NCBI GenBank assembly: GCA_961205875.1
Contig: OY540812.1
Coordinates: 29,645,098 to 29,709,097, forward strand
DNA: 64,000 nucleotides
DNA from: Sialis fuliginosa
Lineage: Eukaryota; Arthropoda; Insecta; Megaloptera; Sialidae
Direction: 5' to 3'
The first letter of the stretch is position 1. Each line of letters begins with the position of its first letter. The notes beneath the pieces are model-generated. The model had not been told where the DNA came from and ran no database searches. It saw nothing but the letters and a program-made list of their open reading frames with translations. Positions 1 to 62,785 of this stretch are shown here, in pieces. The translations under genes were made by a program, and so were the position numbers.

Positions 1-2125
1 AAGTCAAAAAAACAAATTTTAATTTATAAAATCGTATAAATAGCATGCTATGAAAATTAGTATTACATAAGAAAATAACATATTGGTATAGAAAATTAAT
101 GAAAATAAAGGTAATTAATAATTCCAATACTTCAAATAAGACTTTTAATAACATATTATGATAACAATGTACTGAGGTGTAATTTGTAGCCCCTAGATTT
201 AATATTATTGTATGTTTTAATAGTTTTAAATATAAATCTTCAAGACATTTTATTTTATATTCAAAATACGGATATTAAATAAGAACAAAATCAGAGTATC
301 ATAAAAATTTGCATATATGTAGTACTTATATTACATTAGACATGTGCAAAAGTCCTCATAAATTGGAGATATGGAAAAAAAATTATAGCTGTTTTAATTT
401 TGATATGATAAATTACTATGTATCATATTTTCACTTATTATTAACCGTTTTTTACTTGGACATTTACATATTGTGTATCTCTGTATAGCATGTACATTAT
501 GAACAATTGAATTATGATCATTTTGATAGAAAATTTTGATTTTTAAATCAAACGGTTGTTAAGATATAAATTTATTTGTTTAATTCGATTTTATAAAAAT
601 ATATTTTGTTATGTATTTTATACCCGTTTACAGATACGCTTATAACTTTTCTTTCGGGGTATCAATTAATGGGGATTTTCAAACAAGCGTAGTAGATACA
701 TTAGTGAGTGCATCTGAAAAAGTCCCCATACATTGAAGCCATAGGACAAAAGTTACAGCTGTTTTATAATTACGGTGTGGTAAATTGTTATCTATGTAAT
801 GTGTTAACTGTAAATTTAATTATGGGTGATTCTCTCAAAAATTGAAAATGAATTTTATTCCTATTTGATCAATGCTAACGTTCTTATTGAAAGTAGTAAC
901 CATTTTTTTTAATTTCCCCTCGAGACTCTCCATAAAATATTCTTAAGTTTTTTTTTTAAATATACATAGATTTTATACCACATCGTGTTTATAAAAACAG
1001 CTGTAACTTTTGTCCTATTTCTTCAATGTATGGGGACTTTTTCAAATGCACTTACTAATGTATCTACTACGCTTGTTTGAAAATCCCCATTAATTGATAC
1101 CCCGAAAGAAAAGTTATAAGCGTATCTGTAAACGGGTATAAACCTATAAATAATAATGAAAAGCATTTTTTTTTTTAAACTTAAGAATATTTTATGGAGA
1201 GTCCCGATGGGAAATTAAAAAAATGGTTACTACTTTCAATAACAACGATAACATTGATCAAATAGGAATAAAATTCAGTTTCAATTTTTGAGAGAATCAC
1301 CCATAATTAAATTTACAGTTAACACATTACATAGATAACAATTTACCACACCGTAATTATAAAACAGCTGTAACTTTTGTCCTATGGCTTCAATGTATGG
1401 GGACTTTTTCAGATGCACTCACTAATGTATCTACTACGCTTGTTTGAAAATCCCCATTAATTGATACCCCGAAAGAAAAGTTATAAGCGTATCTGTAAAC
1501 GGGTATAAAATACATAACAAAATATATTTTTATAAAATCGAATTAAACAAATAAATTTATATCTTAACAACCGTTTGATTTAAAAATCAAAATTTTCTAT
1601 CAAAATGATCATAATTCAATTGTTCATAATGTACATGCTATACAGAGATACACAATATGTAAATGTCCAAGTAAAAAACGGTTAATAATAAGTGAAAATA
1701 TGATACATAGTAATTTATCATATCAAAATTAAAACAGCTATAATTTTTTTTCCATATCTCCAATTTATGAGGACTTTTGCACATGTCTAATGTAATATAA
1801 GTACTACATATATGCAAATTTTTATGATACTCTGATTTTGTTCTTATTTAATATCCGTATTTTGAATATAAAATAAAATGTCTTGAAGATTTATATTTAA
1901 AACTATTAAAACATACAATAATATTAAATCTAGGGGCTACAAATTACACCTCAGTACATTGTTATCATAATATGTTATTAAAAGTCTTATTTGAAGTATT
2001 GGAATTATTAATTACCTTTATTTTCATTAATTTTCTATACCAATATGTTATTTTCTTATGTAATACTAATTTTCATAGCATGCTATTTATACGATTTTAT
2101 AAATTAAAATTTGTTTTTTTGACTT
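1..2125. repeat. Giant near-perfect palindrome, arms about 950 bp
   Basis: The first 952 bases are the reverse complement of about 1174-2125. Base x pairs with base 2126-x without any indel at the places I checked (661/1465, 900/1226, 1/2125). I saw no mismatch in the outer 860 bases; differences appear only near the centre (902-952). The spacer is about 220 bases and itself holds another copy of an arm segment. The left arm runs off the window edge, so the true left boundary is unknown. No protein-coding signal is seen. It could be a foldback-type element, an inverted satellite segment, or an assembly artefact; the diverged centre argues against a simple read-through artefact. Confidence 0.9.
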
Positions 2126-2530
2126 TTTAAAAATGAAATATCTAACAAAAATTTACACATCGAATGTTGTACCTTACAAAAAAAATTGTAAAATTTTATT
2201 CTCTACAACTTTTATAGAAGACATTTGTCTCGATTATCAGTTTTAAGAGCTTAAAAATCCATTTAAACATATTTTTTTGATTAACCGCACTTAGTTTTCA
2301 GATTCACGGCGATTTTTCAGAAATTTATGTAGATACGTTGGAGAAAATTTTGAAATAAAGTTGTAAAGCAAATATTTTTGAAAATTTTAATGTAAGGCAC
2401 GTCTCGGTATCTTTATTTGTCTTGAAGTTATTCAATAAAAACTAAATTAAATTTCAAACGGCTGTAATTTTTTTTCCACAAGGTCTATGGATGGGGACTT
2501 TTGTGTACAGACGTACTATTATGTATATTA
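976..2530 (+). repeat. Degenerate tandem unit of about 363 bp
   Basis: A motif with the core CAATGTATGGGGACTTTTTC, preceded by a CAGCTGTAA-like word, recurs near 1010, 1374 and 1737, and again near 2455, two periods further on. The left palindrome arm carries the same units inverted, near 345 and 710. The copy at 976-1140 is almost identical to 1344-1507; the copies at 1737 and 2455 are more diverged. The palindrome therefore looks like a head-to-head turn inside an old array of about 363-bp units. Confidence 0.65.
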
Positions 2531-3325
2531 TATGGGCACCAAATTTCATTCCACTCCGAATTTGTTCCAAAAACAGGGCAATTTTTCCCTTCATTGCCTG
2601 TACTATTACTAATTATAGAATTATTAAATAAACAAAAAAAATAAATAAATTGAGTAAAATTTATCGTACATTTTTAAATAGTAACAGTTCCATTCAATTC
2701 ACAAAAAAGAAAAATTCATAAAATTAGTTTAATTAAAAAAATATAAAATTAAAATATATTCTAATAAAAAAATATGAAACATAATTTTTTAAATACCTAA
2801 CGCCATTACGATATTACATTCCAAAATTTACAGAATGTAATAAAAATCAAGATAAATTTATTTTTATTTTAACATCATTTCACAAAATTGGCATTCAGTA
2901 GCTTTTAAAATGACAAATTAAACATTATGTTCTACATTATTGTAGCTCATGAATACAAATTAGAAGCAATATATATAAGAATGAAGACATTTACAATGAC
3001 AAAAGAAATATATCTATATACAGTTTAAATTTTTAGTCTCAAATAAAAAATAAAATAATTATCTATCTAAAAAAGAGCAATATTTACTGAAGCTGTAAAA
3101 TATAATATTTACTAACCATTTTCTTACACTGATGTTATTAAACAAAAAATATAAAACCAAACGATAAATTATTTTAAAATAAATATACCTAATCTTTCAC
3201 AACTCAATTAATTAAAAATAAATCTTCAAACAGACAAACAAAAAATGCACAGTACCTTTTTATTAATTTTATTTAACAACAACCGAAAAAAACACTGGAT
3301 TCTAAAAATTGAAGTAAAAAATAAA
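2531..3325. other. AT-rich sequence, nothing recognised
   Basis: Very AT-rich, with A-rich stretches and short open frames only. I see no repeat ends, no long hairpin and no coding character on either strand. Confidence 0.6.
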
Positions 3326-3329
3326 ATCA

Positions 3330-3605
3330 AAACGTAACGACAGACAAAAGCTCAGGCGTTACACGACGATTCGTTAACGGGCAACGACTGCGAGCTAGAG
3401 ACATTTATGGACCAAACGACACAACTTGTCCTGCCCGAACACGTCCGAGCGTTGTCGGTAACGCACGAGATAACTTGTCTATACCGAACGATCACCGAAC
3501 TGCACCGAAAGTAGCCGAGTTCATCTCGATTTTTCACAAACGCAAATATTTTCTATGTAAGCTCGTGCAAGCTACCGTAGATCGAACTGTGTTTATTCAA
3601 ATAAT
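3330..3605. promoter_or_regulatory. CpG-rich island, possible promoter or untranslated exon
   Basis: About 270 bases with many CG dinucleotides stand out in AT-rich surroundings. A 61-codon frame is open on the minus strand (3352-3537) but resembles no family I know. On the plus strand a donor-like GTAAGC lies at 3557. The composition fits a promoter or 5' exon of a host gene lying outside the window, but no start codon or splice pair can be confirmed. It could also be a fragment of an old element. Confidence 0.3.
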
Positions 3606-3948
3606 AAATATCTAACATCGGTTGTGGGAGGTAATTCTACCCCTATTAATAAGGGATGGTTTTATATGATTTCTGTTTAAATTTATCGCTTACAAACGGA
3701 ATTTATGTAATGGATTTTTTTTGTATAAACATTTTATGTTTTAAATAAAAAGGTTCGGTTGCCACTGTGATTAATTAATTTTATTGATTTGGTTTTAAAT
3801 GATTTATGTTTCTTGAAAATTTTATATTTGAGTCAAATATTGATTGTGTTTTTTTGTATTTCGTACGTTAGACTAATTTTCATGTTGATTGTAGAAATAT
3901 CATTGTGAGATTTTGCTAATATGAAACATTTTACTATCTATATAGATC

Positions 3949-4261: not shown

Positions 4262-4790
4262 GGCTAGAACAAAACATCTGCCAAGTGAATGCACAATGCC
4301 TCCTCGTGATAAATTCACCAAAGAGAGTTGATTATCAAACAATTTCAATTTAAATATTATTTTTTCTGTTATTTAATATGCCAAAGTATATTTATAGCGA
4401 TTGTAAAGAACAAATGACGAATTTTTAATGCAAATTGAGATCAATCCTAAAATTGAATGCTCTACAAAAACGTTTCACGTAACATATGTCTTTCTTGAAA
4501 TATAGTCAAAATATAAATATTTTGTGGTGTCATACTAACGATTTTAAAAATTTGGAAATGGGACCGTCCTCAAGCCAGACCAAACCAACCAAGTTTCATC
4601 GGTTCAGTGGTTCATGAGTTATGCGTGTGACAAGGATTCACTCGACAGACAGACACACAGACAAAGTGTTTGTCTTGATCTGAAACGGAAAGATCAAGTT
4701 AAAATTTTGAAATCGGAGAACAATTTTTTTTTTAATTTTAAAACGATCACAAATCTTCTTGTATTTGATATGGTGAGAAAGCAATATTTT
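4262..4790 (+). repeat. Family A interspersed repeat, copy 1
   Basis: Starts with AACATCTGCCAAGTGAATGC and a CCTCGTG-containing word, then carries the shared words GGTTCAGTGGTTCATGAGTT and GCGTGTGACAAGGATTC, a GACAGACA-rich core, and the tail AAATCGGAGAACA. It is shortened against the copies near 29.2 and 43.4 kb and lacks the exact (GGAC)n run. No coding capacity is conserved between copies, so the 69-codon frame inside it is judged fortuitous. Confidence 0.75.
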
Positions 4791-4991
4791 GTAGAAAAGA
4801 TCGAACAATATTATTATCTATAATTTAGTCTATTTATTTTATCCCAAAAAACGGAAATAATCCATTTAAAAAAAAATTCGAAAAAATACTCTTAAAAACA
4901 CTGAAAAGTATACTTAATAATTAAATTCTTTTTTCTTTAGTAAAAAAATTTTTATTGGCTTGGCGCCTACTTCAAAAGCTGTTTTTAATTA

Positions 4992-5854
4992 TATACCGGT
5001 GATCCAGATCACCTATCCACTATGTGTTTTACGCCCAAACTATTGAAGATAGAGTTTTATGATAAAAAATGTATTATATATATCGACCCTAAGAATTTAG
5101 GGAAAATATTTTCAATCCCCTAAAACCCCTCCTTGGGGGGGTAGTTTGAGGGGTACATACCCGTTTCTCAGCAAAATCAAATGGAACGGTATATCCAAAA
5201 GTACATAATTTTAAAGATCATTAAAAAGTAAGAAACTTTTTTTAAAAAATTTTTTATACATTCAATTTAAATTAACAACTTTTGTTAAGAAAATTTTAAA
5301 TTTTATAAAAAAAAGTTATAAGTTTTCAATATAATTTTAAATTTTCTTAACAAAAGTTGTTAATTTAAATATATTTTTTAACCCTTTATATATGACACTT
5401 TAAACTATCCAAATCTCAAATAATCATACACCATTAGAAAACTTATTATTTCTACTTTCTAAAAAAAAACAATTCGTTAATATTTAAGGAACCTAGAGCA
5501 CTTTTAGTAAAACCCTAAAATTTGGGAACAAGTTGCCATATTTTCTAAACAATTTAATGTATGAAAAAATTTTTTTTACAAATGTGTCTTACTTTTTTAT
5601 GATCTTTCAAATTATGTACTTTTGGATATACGAGTACCACGGATATACCGTTCCATTTGATTTTGCTGAGAAACGGGTATGTACCCCTCAAACCACCCCC
5701 CAAGGAGGGGTTTTAGGGGATTGAAAATATTTTCCTGATATTCTTTAGGGTCGATATATATAATAAATTTTTTATCATGAAACTCTATCTTCAATAGTTT
5801 GGGCGTAAAACATAGTAAACGAGTGGTCTGGAACACCCGGTATATGTTTTTAAG
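4992..5854. mobile_element. Element D, long-TIR non-autonomous DNA transposon
   Basis: Long inverted repeats of about 240-250 bases (4996-5235 and 5589-5850) flank a centre of about 350 bases. Both ends read ACCGG(G)TG inward and share words such as ACGCCCAAACTATTGAAGAT and AAATGGAACGGTATATCC. Flanks are TATAT on both sides, compatible with a short TA-rich target duplication. The centre contains a hairpin with arms near 5265-5301 and 5339-5370. There is no transposase, so movement would need a relative's enzyme. A second, truncated copy lies at 31299-31850. Confidence 0.8.
5265..5371. repeat. Internal hairpin of element D
   Basis: Arms containing TTAACAACTTTTGTTAAG and its complement form about 31 paired bases around an A/T-rich loop of about 40 bases. 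Confidence 0.6.
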
Positions 5855-7189: not shown

Positions 7190-8915
7190 TAATCTACTTT
7201 GTTGAAATATTAAAGTAGGTATTTAATAAATCATACATTAATTGTATAATCTACGGGAAAAATATCATGTAAGTAAACAATATGTATAAAGTTAAGACCA
7301 CACAACGGGAAGTCAGATGCTAACACTGTTGTTTCAGTCATATCATTTATTCATTAGACTTAAGATTATATTAATCAATACAATGTATTTATATTAGGTA
7401 TAAAATGTAATGTAATCATTTAAAACAGCCACTCTTATATTGGCTTGCACATGAAGTGAATCTTATGCTGTATAGTTAATATATTAGGCAGTGGCGTATT
7501 TACCATGGGGCCATGGGGGCCATGGCCTAAGGCGGCAAGTTGAGAGGGGCGGTAGAAAAAAAATAGGGAGACAAAAAATGAGTAACGCGACTAAAAAAAA
7601 AAAGGTCTTCAAGTTTTTATTTCCCTATGTTCCAAACTTTTTAGTTCATAAAATCAGAAATTTCAATGGACGTGACAAAAAAAAAGGGCATCGGTTTTTA
7701 ATTTATATTATACTTGTAAAAATTCTCACTTTTCACTTCATATAGGAATTCTGACTGTCAAAAATAAATTATATTTTCCCTTGGTAAAGGGGCGGCAATT
7801 ATTTTCTACTCAGGGCGGCATTTTTTTTGCCCAGGGCGGTACTTAACGTTAATACGTCATTGATATTAGTCAATACAGTGTAATTGTTTTTAAAAAGACC
7901 TTTTCCGGGAACCGACACTTAACTTGTAGTGTACGTTATAAAATTTGTGGCACTGCCTAGATTAATATTCACTTACATATTACAATTGTATAGCAGGTTT
8001 TTAATAAATTTTTAGTCTACGTGAAAAAAATATATAAACAATATTATGTAGGCAATGTGTAAACTACGTTTTATAATCCATGTTAATATGCACATGTTAA
8101 TATCCACAGTATATAGTATTTCAATGTAGGCATGCCTTTTAGATAAATAACCATGTAAATAATATGTAAACGTAGACTACGTTTTACAATATGTGGCACT
8201 GCGTGGAATAATATTCACTTGCATATTAATATTTAAAGTAAGTATAAAACATACAATAATTGTATGCATAAAAAATGGTCATGTAAACAATATGTAGTCA
8301 ATACGTAGACTACGTTTTGTATGTTGTTGCACAGCACGTGTTAATACTCACAGTATATAGTATTTTAATGTAGGAATCTAGGCATGTCTATTAGATAAAT
8401 AACCGGGTAAGTAATATGTAGACAATAAGTAGACTACGTTCTACAATATATGACACTGCGTGGAATTATATTCACTTGTATATTAATATTTTAAAGCAAG
8501 TATTTAATAAAACATACAATAATTGTATACATGACAAATGTTCATGTAAACAATATGTAGTCAATGTGTAGACTACGTTTTGTATGTTGTTGCACAGCAC
8601 GTGTTAATACCCACAGTATATAGTATTTTTTATGTAGTAATCTAGGCATGTCTATTAGATAAATTACCGGGTAAGTAATATGTAAACAATAAGTAGACTA
8701 CGTTTGATAAATATGTGGCACTACGCGGAATAATATTCACTTGTATATTAATATTTAAAGCAAGTATTTAATAAAACGTACAATAATTGTATGCATAAAA
8801 AATGGTCATGTAAACAATATGTAATCAATACGTAGACTACGTTTTGTATGTTGTTGCACAGCACGTGTTAATACCCACAGTATATAGTATTTTAATGTAG
8901 GCATTTAATAAACGC
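7190..8915 (+). repeat. Dimeric satellite-like array, 264-bp unit
   Basis: The word CACGTGTTAATAC recurs at 8335, 8598 and 8862 (spacing 263 and 264), with a variant at 8091. Each unit is made of two related halves that both begin ACTACGTTT: one of about 139 bases, with CACTGCGTGGAATAATATTC, and one of about 125 bases, with CACAGTATATAGTATTTTA. Units between 8150 and 8900 are close copies. The part left of 7900 is more diverged and is interrupted by the hAT element at 7489-7862. No genes are present. Confidence 0.85.
7489..7862. mobile_element. hAT-type non-autonomous element
   Basis: Terminal inverted repeats CAGTGGCGTA and TACGTCATTG are flanked by an 8-bp target duplication, ATATTAGG (7481-7488) and ATATTAGT (7863-7870), differing at one base. 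An 8-bp duplication with CA...TG ends is the hAT superfamily signature. Subterminal GGCGGC words occur near both ends. It is 374 bp and encodes no transposase. It is younger than the satellite array it interrupts. Confidence 0.85.
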
Positions 8916-39493: not shown

Positions 39494-39700
39494 GGGGAAC
39501 ATTGGTTAATATGGCACACCCAGAAAAACGCTGATTAATAAAGTTTATATGTTTGAAAATTATGGAATTGTTTTTTTTTATGTATGAGATGCAATTGTAG
39601 AAAAAAAATGCAATTCCATAATTTTTTTATATTATTTAAAATAATAATGATTTTGGACATTTTCACCTTTGCTTTATTGTATATCAAAATTATATAATTA

Positions 39701-40960
39701 TACAGGCTGGTTCGGTTTGGGATACAGATATTTTATGAGCTGATTCCTTGGCTCATTGTGAGTAAAAAATTGTACGGGAAAATGAGGTCTATCTTCAACA
39801 CCCACTGAGCTACAGAATGTTTAAAAACTTTCTTCAGAGTCGTACTTACAAACAAAGATTATCTCATAACTTCCAAAGTAACGTAATTAGAGCAACCACA
39901 ATGAGTCAGTTTCATAAGTAATTAACTAACGTATTTTTCTGTATTAGCGTTATTGCTACAGTGTTTTCAGTTCAGAGTTATAACTCATCAAAGTCAAAAA
40001 ATATGTTTATTTTTTTGAAATTTTTTATGAAAATGACATTTTTCTTCAAAAGCACCTATAATATGGGGTATTTTAATCATTATTTTGGTGTGTCATAAAT
40101 CATAATATTACCTACAAATTCACTCTACAAAATTTGGACCTGAGTCCTTCAGTTATGATTATTTAGATAAATTTATAACTGGTAAACTGTAAGACCCAGG
40201 TCCAAACTTTGTATAGTGAATTTGTAGGTAACATTATGATACACCAAAATAATGATAAAAAATACCACATATTATAGGTACTTTTGGAGAAAAATTTCGT
40301 TTTCATAAAAATTTTCAAAAAAAATAAATATATTTTTTGACTTTGATGAGCAGTAATTCTGAACTGGAAACACGGTTAGCAATAACGCCTGAAAAAAATT
40401 AAAAAATTGGTCATATTCTACTAATTGAGATCTACATTTTGCCACCCCACACGCCTTGATATACCATTTTTATTTTCTTATTTTTGAATTTGCTTTAAAG
40501 CCCCCTGCAGGCGCCATTTATGATTTAGACAAAAATAAGAAAGTGGGTCAATTTCCGCTGCTTTGGTTATACATTTTAACATGCCACATGCCTTGGTATA
40601 AAAAAAATATTTTTTTTATCTAACTTTAAGTCCTTAGCGCCCCCCTCTGAAAAATTAAAGTTCCGCCCAGGCACAAAATGATTTTTCTCATGCTCGCTAT
40701 GAGTACTAACATTTAAAAAATATTTTACCCTGTTACTCGATAGGCTAGTTTTTTTGCAGTCAGCTCTTGCTCTATTACGTTACTTTGGAAGATATGAGAT
40801 AATCTTTGTTTGTAATTACTACTCTTAAGAAAGTTTTTAAACATCCTGTAACTCAGAGGGTGTTGAAGATAAACTCCACCTTCCCGTACAATTTTTTACT
40901 CGCAATGAGCCAAGGAATCAGCTCTTAAAATATCTGCATCCCAAACCGGACCAACCTGTA
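39701..40960. mobile_element. Foldback-like TACAGG element with broken right arm
   Basis: Ends TACAGGCTGGTTCGGTTTGG and, inverted, TACAGGTTGGTCCGGTTTGG. Inverted similarity covers about 200 bases at the ends (39701-39900 with 40770-40960) and resumes for 39980-40150 with 40190-40395, so nearly the whole element folds on itself. The right arm is interrupted at 40397-40735 by family H sequence. TATCAAAATT stands immediately after the element and about 19 bases before it. No coding capacity. Confidence 0.82.
40397..40735 (+). repeat. Family H segment inside the TACAGG element
   Basis: TTGGTCATATTCTACTAATT, CACCCCACACGCCTTG and GCCCCCTGCAGGCGCC match 57840-57910 and the other H units. Confidence 0.75.
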
Positions 40961-41324
40961 TATCAAAATTAAAAGTAATAATAATTCTACTGTATAAATC
41001 GAAAAATATTAATTTACTTAGAAAAAGTATACGTCGGCACTGGTTCACTTTTGATTCTTGTGCTATTCTCTGCCACCTGTCAAAATTTTAAATCAATTCA
41101 TTCATGTTCAAAGAATTATGAGGTGATAACCGTCATTTACTGGACTATTGGGCAAAAGTAAGTTCTAATAATTTAAAATACCACAGGATATTATTATTAA
41201 AAAAATATTGAATCGTTGATAAATAAAAAAATATGAAACTATAGATAGGCGGTTAATGTAGCGCATTCAAGCAAATGTTGAAAATGTGATAAATTTGTGA
41301 ATGTTAATACGCACAATTTGTTAC
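40961..41324. other. No gene recognised
   Basis: AT-rich; short frames only. Confidence 0.4.
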
Positions 41325-52597: not shown

Positions 52598-52970
52598 CAT
52601 TTTATTGTAAGTAAAAATAAAAACAAACTTGTTTGTTTAAACGTCAAAATTTATTAAAGAAGAGGAAACCGCAAGCTTTCGATTCACAGAATCATCGTCA
52701 GGCTAAAATATAATAAGTAACAATTAAATACAATAAATATAATGCAAAATATTGATATTTTAAAATAAAAATTCAGAAATATACCTATTAATAAAGATTT
52801 AAATTTATTGTATTTAATTGTTACTTATTATATTTTAGCCTGACGATGATTCTGTGAATCGAAAGCTTGCGGTTTCCTCTTCTTTAATAAATTTTGACGT
52901 TTAAACAAACAAGTTTGTTTTTATTTTTATTTAACGTCACTACTATCATATTATCATTTTATTGTAAGTA
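52598..52970. mobile_element. Palindromic insert with 16-bp target duplication
   Basis: CATTTTATTGTAAGTA occurs at 52598-52613 and again at 52955-52970. Between them are perfect inverted arms of about 127 bases (52612-52738 and 52803-52928) around a 64-base loop. The arms include CCTGACGATGATTCTGTGAA and CGAAAGCTTGCGGTTTCCTC, words typical of the 3' region of insect retroelements. A 16-bp duplication suits target-primed reverse transcription, so the insert may be an inverted double copy of a retroelement 3' end. Confidence 0.8.
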
Positions 52971-60370: not shown

Positions 60371-62785
60371 CACTGATTCCCAAACTGCGGTCCTCGGCTT
60401 CCTTGACGGTATTGGGGAGACCAAAGGGAGCCCTGCTGGTTCTGGGTGAACTTCGGGAGCCGCGGGAGGACAAAAGGGGGCTTTTTTAATATTATAAAAT
60501 GTTATAAAATCCTTTATTACACAATTACATTTCTAATTTGTTTCATCGTTTGATTCATGAAAGTGACACTTCGAAGTTCATAATGTGACCACAAGTACCA
60601 AAACATAACCAAAAAAATTATACCTGGTGAAACTGACATTTGAATGTCAAAACTACTTGTTCTTTGTTTTTGGTGTTTTTTGCCGTTTTTAATTATCGTT
60701 TTAAAAATAAATACTACGTTTTTTTAACAACAATTCATTAGAAAACGTGATTTCTTATTAGTACCCCTAATTATAATTTTAATTTTATAATATTATGGTT
60801 TTTATATATTACTAGTAGGGGGCCTATGGTCAAAATTCGACCAATATTTTACCTGCCTTAACGGCAACATATAAGTATGATTTTTTTGCACATCTATAGC
60901 ACAGTACCTTTTGAATGACATAAGTTTCATTTGCCTCCTTTTCTAATAAATACTAAAAAAACGTACGACAATTTTATATTATTATTATATAACACTATAT
61001 AAAACTATATATAACCTGTATGTACAATGAACATATATGTACAGGGTAGTTCAATAGTGCGTCCGGCTTTCCTAGCGCGCTTCTGGTAGGAGATAGAAAA
61101 AAACGTTTGGTACATAATATTATTGGTCTGAAACGATGAACGTCGTAAAATTATTGTCAACAATACAGATATCCCATTTTTGCGCTATGATAAAAACAAA
61201 GTTTTTTTTAAATGGAATACCCTGTAACGTTTTATGTCTTTCGATGTCATTTTTTAACCTCTACATTATCGTTTGTTCATTTTTTGATTTAGTGACAGTG
61301 TTGCCAAATTGTAATTTTTTTTCCGAAAAATAATCCATATTCAGGCTCAACCATAAAAAATCGTAGCGACCTCGTTTTTTTTGAAGCGGTGAATTTTTTT
61401 AGCAATAGTGTTAGTCCTGGAAAAGAGTACCATTTTGATAACAAACAATTTTAATTTAGTTCTACAGGATGTTAATAAAAAAATGTCAAAATTTGCAATC
61501 TTCAAAATAATAAAACTCATTTTTTTCAAATGTGACTACCCTTTTTTTATTTCACTATTCGATGGGTATTTTTCTCCTCTTCAATTTGTATAGGATATAT
61601 CTTATGACTAAACCCCATAGTTTCTGAGATATTCAATAATTTTCACCAAAGTAACCATTTCATCACATTTTTATGAACCAAAGTAGGCCAAAAAAATGCA
61701 AAACAAATGCGAAACTAATAGAAAACAAATGCCGGTGAATTGATTTGTGCCTGGATGAAAATGGAAGATATTCCGAACATTTATTATAGTCTTATCTTTT
61801 ATAGGTGTTTTGAATTTTGTTACTTATCATAGTTTTTTTGAAGAAAATAAATAATTTTATTACATAAATATTATCCGTTTTAATTATAAAATTAAATCAA
61901 ATGTTACATTGATACTTACATTTTGGCATTTGTTTTATATCAGCGCAGCCTACTTCGATGCATAAAAATGTGATGAAATGGTTACTTTTGTGAAAATTAT
62001 TGAATATCTCAGAAACTATGGGGTTAAGACATAGGATATCTCCTATACAAATTGAAAAGGAGAAAAATAACCATTGAATAGAGTAATGAAAAAAGGGTAG
62101 TCACATTTTTTTTAAATGAGTTTTATTATTTTGAAGATTGCAATCTTTGACATTTTTTTATTAACACCCTGTAGAACTAAATTAAAATTGTTTGTTATCA
62201 AAATGTTACTCTTTACCAGGACTAACACTATTGCTAAAAAAATTCATCGCTTCACAAAAAAACGAGGTCGCTACGATTTTTTATGGTTGAACCTGAATAT
62301 GGATTATTTTTCGGAAAAAAAATTACAATTTGGCAACACTGTCACTAAATCAAAAAATGAACAGACGATAATGTAGAGGTTAAAAAATGACATTGGAAGA
62401 CATCAAACGTTACAGGGTATTCCATTTAAAAAAAACTTTGTTTTTGCCATAGCGCAAAAATGTGATACCCTGTATTATTGAAAATAATTTTATGACGTTC
62501 ATCGTTTCAGACCAATAATATTTAGTGGAGAGCCGTAAGGCATAGAAATCTTAAAACCTCGGAATCCAGGACCAGTCAATGAATATTTATGAAACCTTTT
62601 GGAATTATGTACCAAACTTTTTTTTCAATCTCCAACGAGAAGCGCGCTAGGAAAGCCAGACGCACTATTGAACTACCCTGTATATGAAAAAATGTTCACT
62701 ACTAAAAATGTAAATTATCAGAGGAGCCTTGTGATTTTTTATAACTGAAAAGAGGGTAGTAGGTAAAAAAGTTTGGGAACCTATG
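60371..62785. mobile_element. hAT-like element containing a foldback element
   Basis: CACTGATTCCCAAAC at the left and GTTTGGGAACCTATG at the right match at 12 of 15 positions. Flanks GTATAGAT (60363-60370) and ATCTAGAT (62786-62793) agree at 6 of 8 positions, an aged 8-bp duplication. Subterminal sequence is GC-rich at the left (GCGGTCCTCGGCTTCC). Without the inner element it would be about 0.77 kb. No transposase. Confidence 0.55.
61040..62682. mobile_element. Foldback-like element, arms about 650 bp
   Basis: Both ends read TACAGGGTAGTTCAATAGTG inward and are bordered by TATG (61036-61039 and 62683-62686). The arms (about 61040-61695 and 61940-62682) are highly similar, with few mismatches, but the right arm has about 84 extra bases near 62522-62605. 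The loop is about 245 bases. All open frames in it are arm-symmetric and not coding. Confidence 0.85.

Follow-up and report, generated by a model that had tools for sequence, protein, structure and literature searches.

A near-perfect palindrome in Sialis fuliginosa is a copy of a dispersed, foldback-type transposon whose arms probably recombine with each other

The stretch of Sialis fuliginosa DNA analyzed here (hereafter the window; 64,000 nucleotides, C4:29645098–29709097) opens with a near-perfect palindrome, which raises the question of what kind of sequence this is and how its two arms come to be so alike. The initial annotation had described a palindrome with 950-bp arms between positions 1 and 2125. 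Alignment confirms that positions 1–950 and 1177–2125 are reverse complements, but the two limits are only the edge of the window and its mirror image. The left edge lies 29.6 Mb inside a 35.8-Mb contig and is therefore not a contig end, and the symmetry continues beyond it for 93 more perfect pairs and then, with few differences, to about 450 bases. From its termini, length, and symmetry beyond the window, the complete copy spans window positions −469 to 2605 (1–2605 within the window) and has 3,075 bp with a GC content of 0.256. Its left tip lies at G000:C4:29644628; the copy starts with TAGTACAGGC and ends with GCCTGTACTA (2596–2605, plus strand), and it is flanked on both sides by TTA, at −472 to −470 just left of the left tip and at 2606–2608.

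This copy on contig C4 consists mostly of long terminal inverted repeats, two arms of ~1.42 kb around a centre of ~226 bp. The left arm (1–950 in the window, minus strand, true start at −469) carries a tip that we call type A, while the right arm (1177–2605, plus strand) ends in a tip of type B; the centre, or spacer (951–1176, plus strand), flips its orientation to the tips between copies, as the copy comparison below reveals. The outer positions 1–847 of the left arm are paired in 847 of 847 cases, whereas its inner end (848–950, minus strand) differs from the counterpart in the right arm (1177–1278, plus strand) by six substitutions and one indel. The base-for-base match over at least 860 bases claimed earlier is thereby corrected to a perfect run of 847 within the window. 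The chance that all seven differences would cluster in the inner 103 positions out of 950 is ~1.8e-7. Over window −404 to 847 only 2 of 1,252 sites differ between the arms, compared with 6 of 98 sites at the inner ends. In addition, the spacer segment 994–1142 is 97% like 1361–1509, which bears out the third copy of an arm segment that had been noticed there. A naked strand of window 700–1426 is predicted to fold into a hairpin, as any palindrome would, and it is possible that a cruciform or long double-stranded RNA could form from the palindrome.

Nine inverted-repeat rows of the window, with limits set by the analyst and with one element entered twice and two rows that are parts of another, were compared with one another. 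The arms of the C4 palindrome are 99.3% identical versus 73.5–90.9% in the other eight rows, and its longest identical run of 847 is followed by one of 127 bp at 52.6 kb. The latter belongs to a short inverted repeat at 52608–52933 with 135-bp arms at 99% and 56 bp between them. A long inverted-repeat element at 61037–62685 has the ends TACAGGGTAGTTC.../...GAACTACCCTGTA and TATG on both sides, and the main parts of its arms (61116–61714 and 61922–62522) are ~92% alike. Nested inverted repeats with the ends TATACAGG.../...CCTGTATA occupy 39699–40962, with arms 91% alike outside and 83% inside, and a diverged inverted-repeat element (75% overall, ends ATATACCGG.../...CCGGTATAT) lies at 4991–5845, parts of which recur near 31.3–31.8 kb. 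The window also contains a 264-bp unit in three tandem copies with 89% matches (8123–8901) and a dispersed repeat family around TTCAGTGGTTCATGAGTTATGCGTGTGACAAGGATTC at 4595, 29738, 32371, 35929, 43942, and 56851, mostly followed by GGAC/AGAC runs. To the right of the palindrome, the block 3300–3620 has a GC content of 0.417 and an observed/expected CpG ratio of 2.02 (window means 0.296 and 1.11) and is possibly an exon or promoter; a 96-aa open frame within it has no Pfam match.

A search of the genome, 392,097,322 bases (392 Mb) in 20 contigs, gave 97 matches, with 40 of 189 candidates scored, and the merged rows correspond to at least 40 places, partial copies included. Twenty-three loci were fetched, and their flanks outside the tips differ from one another. 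Both ends are in hand for 22 copies out of the 40 places, namely 11 copies of 3.04–3.09 kb, four composites described below, the pair L026/L045, and six shorter variants of 2.47–2.72 kb. Equal 3-bp flanks border all 22 (11/11 full copies, 6/6 shorter variants, 4/4 composites, where the comparison was made by eye, and L026/L045), while the chance of equal flanks is ~0.025 per copy. The duplicated target is TTA or TAA in 12 of the 22 and TTT, AAA, TGA, ATT, TAT, or TAG in the rest. At 13 other places (L012, L013, L014, L017–L021, L025, and L027–L030), the fetched stretch holds one tip only; one exact tip was found in L039, L040, and L042 and no exact tip in L043, and C4:32013247 lies outside the fetched places. 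Four copies of ~2.71 kb on contig C1 (L031–L034) have a shorter centre, where the module of the spacer apparently joins the next arm module directly, and matching 3-bp duplications of TAA or TTA (4/4).

The dispersal of the copies implies that the palindrome is genomic and not an artefact, and the matching 3-bp duplications around 22 of 22 two-ended copies identify the family as a mobile transposon of the foldback type. Long inverted repeats round a short middle, dispersed copies with fixed ends and a target duplication, and repeats inside the arms are all present. The element looks non-coding, because stop-free stretches in 11 copies reach no more than 67–100 aa, depending on the copy. Within the window there is no Rfam match at gathering scores and no tRNA, and Pfam comparison of 10 of the 56 stop-to-stop open reading frames of at least 75 aa gave two weak matches, both below the curated cut-offs. 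The palindrome therefore represents a mobile and apparently non-coding DNA transposon of the foldback (long-terminal-inverted-repeat) type, and the initial suggestion of a foldback element is upheld.

The internal repetition of the arms comes from a module of ~165 bp. On the minus strand it occurs at 246–409 (L2) and 615–782 (L1), and on the plus strand at 977–1142 (C, in the spacer), 1344–1511 (R1, the mirror of L1), 1717–1880 (R2, the mirror of L2), and 2441–2600 (R4, tip-proximal and stopping almost at the terminus). For the four sites in the centre and right arm, similarity exceeded that of 1,000 of 1,000 shuffles in 6/6 pairs, and distant pairs are alignable over only ~47–122 bp. By contrast with the modules, the linkers are alike in 1 of 15 pairs (the mirrored one), and the other 14 were equalled by at least 20 of 200 shuffles. 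The ~363-bp units proposed earlier thus contain a truly recurring module but are not units throughout, and a tandem 363-bp satellite is ruled out by the unrelated linkers. No module is present at 1881–2440, no outstanding copy occurs in the window outside 1–2600, and the module pattern gave 0 matches in prokaryotic and viral collections. A candidate dyad inside the module, seen as a weak profile match (E 0.0007), was dropped after a shuffle test, since shuffles were as good in 11/300 cases for C, 68/300 for R1, and 69 to 212/300 for the other four modules. Internal repeats of Galileo are said, in the available parts of two reports, to hold extra transposase-binding sites (PMC4079207, PMC3573991). 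By analogy, the repeated modules here may be putative transposase-binding sites.

Ten copies (L009, L011, L012, and L014–L020) share an insert junction in the outer arm and form a composite sub-family. In the four that were fetched further (L035–L038), the insert sits at arm position 559–566, has the ends CAGGGCCGGCC.../...GGCCGGCTCTG, and is surrounded by a repeat of 8 arm bases, like the one left by a hAT-type insertion. These inserts measure 3,986, 7,649, 6,599, and 4,312 bp and lack any stop-free stretch that reaches 90 aa. Inside the insert of this sub-family, an array of a 184-bp unit occupies L045:85–2938 (15.5 units at 98%), and both of the two composites compared with L045 match this array. 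L026 together with L045 gives the order tip, arm, 184-bp array, rest of the insert, outer 566 bp of the arm, and tip. A reading of L025–L030 as solo arms was discarded, since L026 with L045 proved to be a two-tipped element with an insert; L025 and L027–L030 were compared with L026/L045 over ~1.5 kb only. The "turned satellite" of the initial annotation is unsupported for the palindrome itself, although a real satellite, the 184-bp one, is carried in the element inserted into this sub-family. Over 36 pairs that exclude L019, the composite cores differ by a mean of 0.33% and so form a very young clade, while the 12 cores outside it differ by 3.05% on average (66 pairs). Their own 3-bp duplications (4/4) indicate that the composites moved with the insert on board. 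The composites thus show a foldback element gaining a satellite-bearing insert and then multiplying with it.

To examine the likeness of the arms, 10 complete copies were compared over the window interval −404 to 847; L023, whose centre is altered, was excluded. Within a copy, the arms differ by 1.03% on average, whereas the between-copy means are 2.23–2.56%, and the true pairing of arms was better than all 20,000 random reassignments of the right arms. The nearest arm was the copy's own right arm for 8 of 10 left arms, the exceptions being L004 and L005. Differences within a copy range from 0/1252 in L003, 2/1252 in L001, 4/1252 in L002, and 4/1253 in L007, through 10/1250 in L008, 13/1251 in L006, and 13/1209 in L022, to 22/1251 in L010, 30/1252 in L004, and 30/1238 in L005. 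Of the gap-free columns, 143 are variable: in 38, a variant unique to one copy is present in both of its arms; in 59, the private variant is confined to one arm; and 46 show other patterns. Because a new mutation arises in one arm, the 38 both-arm columns need arm-to-arm copying or double hits. Such variants could come from a source element before transposition, so the copying could precede or follow insertion. The 46 multi-copy columns comprise 11 in which the variant is paired in every carrier and 35 in which at least one carrier has it in one arm only, and homogenisation is therefore incomplete. Moreover, the arms of L004 and L005 differ by 2.4%, as much as separate copies do, and those of L010 by 1.8%, which implies that recombination is episodic and not constant.

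A patchwork in L022 shows where one arm pair changes its state. The informative positions are 20 sites at which L004 and L005 show the same difference between their arms. Along these sites, L022 is r/r from −223 to 711 (12 sites), then l/l at 735 and 741, and finally l/r from 759 to 803 (six sites), so that the state switches once in the interval 711–735 and again in 741–759. This pattern is tract-like and has the look of conversion tracts. Most likely, the identical-looking arms result from the two halves of a copy recombining from time to time. The C4 copy looks recently homogenised from near the tip to window 847, with the inner ends and tips having escaped.

Recombination between inverted arms is also suggested by the centre. 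The composite L019 (C2:37.41 Mb) is 99.8% identical to L015 in its first 800 bases and 100% in its last 1,250, but its centre matches that of L015 only when reversed (score 505 versus 40), while in all of the eight other composites compared with L015 the centre is forward. The inverted centre of L019 is exactly the outcome of a crossover between inverted arms, although the flip could also be a local assembly or haplotype error. When the other copies are oriented by their spacer, tip A is on the left in L001, L002, L003, L006, and L023, and tip B is on the left in L004, L005, L007, L008, L010, and L022. In a tree of 22 cores, from which L023 was excluded, the two orientation classes are interleaved, and at least four changes are counted, L019 included; the tree is built on recombining sequence and is a guide only, with support of 0.86–1.0 for the branches that separate the classes and 0.27–0.63 for others. 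Within-copy homogeneity, the L022 patchwork, and the L019 flip together sustain the earlier proposal of conversion between arms.

The tips themselves stay unlike. Each of 10 aligned copies shows six substitutions and a 10-base indel between tip A and tip B, and all 22 copies with both tips known have one tip A and one tip B. Either conversion tracts seldom reach the tips or like-tipped copies do not spread.

Several other explanations were weighed against a self-recombining transposon. Young insertions with long inverted repeats naturally have alike arms, and a young clade exists among the composites (0.33% mean pairwise core difference, 36 pairs, without L019); arm identity could then simply reflect recent insertion from a source with identical arms, with no arm recombination required. 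We consider this unlikely, as the 38 both-arm columns, the L022 patchwork, and the centre flips need arm exchange at some time, and the C4 copy differs at 6 of 98 inner-end sites against 2 of 1,252 in its arms. Nor is the recent formation suggested initially needed, since the family is older than the arm identity of the C4 copy, as the 3.05% mean difference among the 12 cores outside the young clade indicates.

An assembly or library artefact, such as a foldback read, a missed adapter, or a collapsed inverted repeat at a contig end, would suit a palindrome that opens with the first base of the window, and foldback reads are known to occur, including one with ~2 kb between its halves (PMC12870357, available part). 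However, the window lies deep inside a 35.8-Mb contig, and matches at 40 or more places, with different outer flanks at the 23 fetched loci, refute an artefact at the level of the structure, leaving this explanation with practically no probability. The same contig context and number of places refute an origin by fold-back copying, whether in vivo or artefactual at a contig end, in which an imperfect inverted repeat would have been the starting point (compare PMC10164571, PMC3907307, PMC7467729, PMC12870357, PMC6218980); the sharp change at 847/848 and the start of the palindrome at position 1 had pointed that way. With its fairly regular module spacing, its change of orientation, and the diverged unit where it turns, the palindrome also recalls an inverted satellite array, or macro-dyad, as in Tribolium madens, whose inversion sites look similar in the accessible text (PMC13081366). 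That species has long tandem satellite arrays according to the same text, whereas dispersed 3.1-kb elements with fixed ends are found here (PMC13081366). The ends are sharp and bordered by target duplications, single copies are dispersed, and the linkers are mutually unrelated, all of which makes a macro-dyad extremely improbable; a satellite is a long head-to-tail array of alike units, and what we find instead are diverged modules, unrelated linkers, and fixed ends. Judging from the sequence, a transcript across the palindrome would fold into a stem of ~1.4 kb, as expected of a domesticated long-hairpin RNA locus (hpRNA) yielding small interfering RNAs, but the structure is common to the copies of a mobile family and is explained without such a function, so that this reading is very unlikely, if somewhat less so than the macro-dyad.

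The target duplication helps to place the family among known elements. PIF/Harbinger elements leave a 3-bp duplication, preferably TWA; the family described here has 3 bp in 22/22 copies, but TTA or TAA in 12/22 only, and a link with PIF/Harbinger is possible. The P superfamily leaves 8 bp. Long chromosomal palindromes (e.g. in willow) are parts of sex chromosomes and undergo arm-to-arm gene conversion; they resemble the present element in having arms homogenised by conversion but, unlike it, are not a mobile family. Tetris of Drosophila virilis, as described in the available part of PMC4079207, is a non-coding foldback element with true tandem repeats of ~220 bp and target duplications of 8–10 bp. 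The two are alike in being non-coding, in having long inverted repeats round a short middle and internal arm repeats, and in their link to a satellite. They differ in that the ~165-bp modules here are diverged and joined by unrelated linkers, the duplication measures 3 bp, and the 184-bp satellite is in a nested insert and not in the arm itself. For Galileo, a Drosophila element of the P superfamily, the accessible portion of PMC3573991 gives 98–100% identity between the arms of one copy, with exchange and conversion proposed, P-type transposase sequence in nearly complete copies, and flanking duplications of 7 bp, the last being drawn from a passage on chimeric copies. Galileo shares long, internally repetitive arms that are alike within a copy, as well as extended and recombinant arms, but the element here has a 3-bp duplication and no coding sequence was seen in it. 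Neither the 8–10-bp duplication of Tetris and Mutator-type elements nor the 7–8-bp duplication of Galileo and the P superfamily is present, 3 bp being found here. Overall, the element fits the foldback type by structure and is neither Tetris/Mutator-like nor Galileo/P-like by target duplication.

Taken as a whole, the account of the palindrome as a dispersed, non-autonomous foldback-type transposon copy with self-recombining arms is very probable. Each copy would be moved as a whole, presumably by a transposase acting in trans, of which none was found, and the arms of one copy would recombine after or between transpositions. Exchange of the conversion type would equalise the two arms, and exchange of the crossover type would invert the centre relative to the tips. 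The agent would be intramolecular recombination or repair, possibly by way of a hairpin or cruciform. A further idea, which we regard as rather doubtful, is that the transposon requires two different ends: tips A and B stay distinct even though the 1.25-kb arms are equalised and the centre is flipped again and again. On this view the arms would serve for inversion in place and for self-repair, neither of which would extend to the ends, whose asymmetry would be functional, and A/A or B/B copies would be lost through selection at transposition.

The available text on Galileo discusses, without settling it, why very long inverted repeats recur in unrelated DNA transposons, and arm exchange was inferred there from the variety of copies (PMC3573991). 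In Sialis fuliginosa, such exchange is unusually directly readable, in one genome, from the tract-like edges in L022, the inversion of L019 within a very young clade, and the unlike tips. The family could allow direct measurement of how often and how far the arms recombine and of the need for unlike ends.
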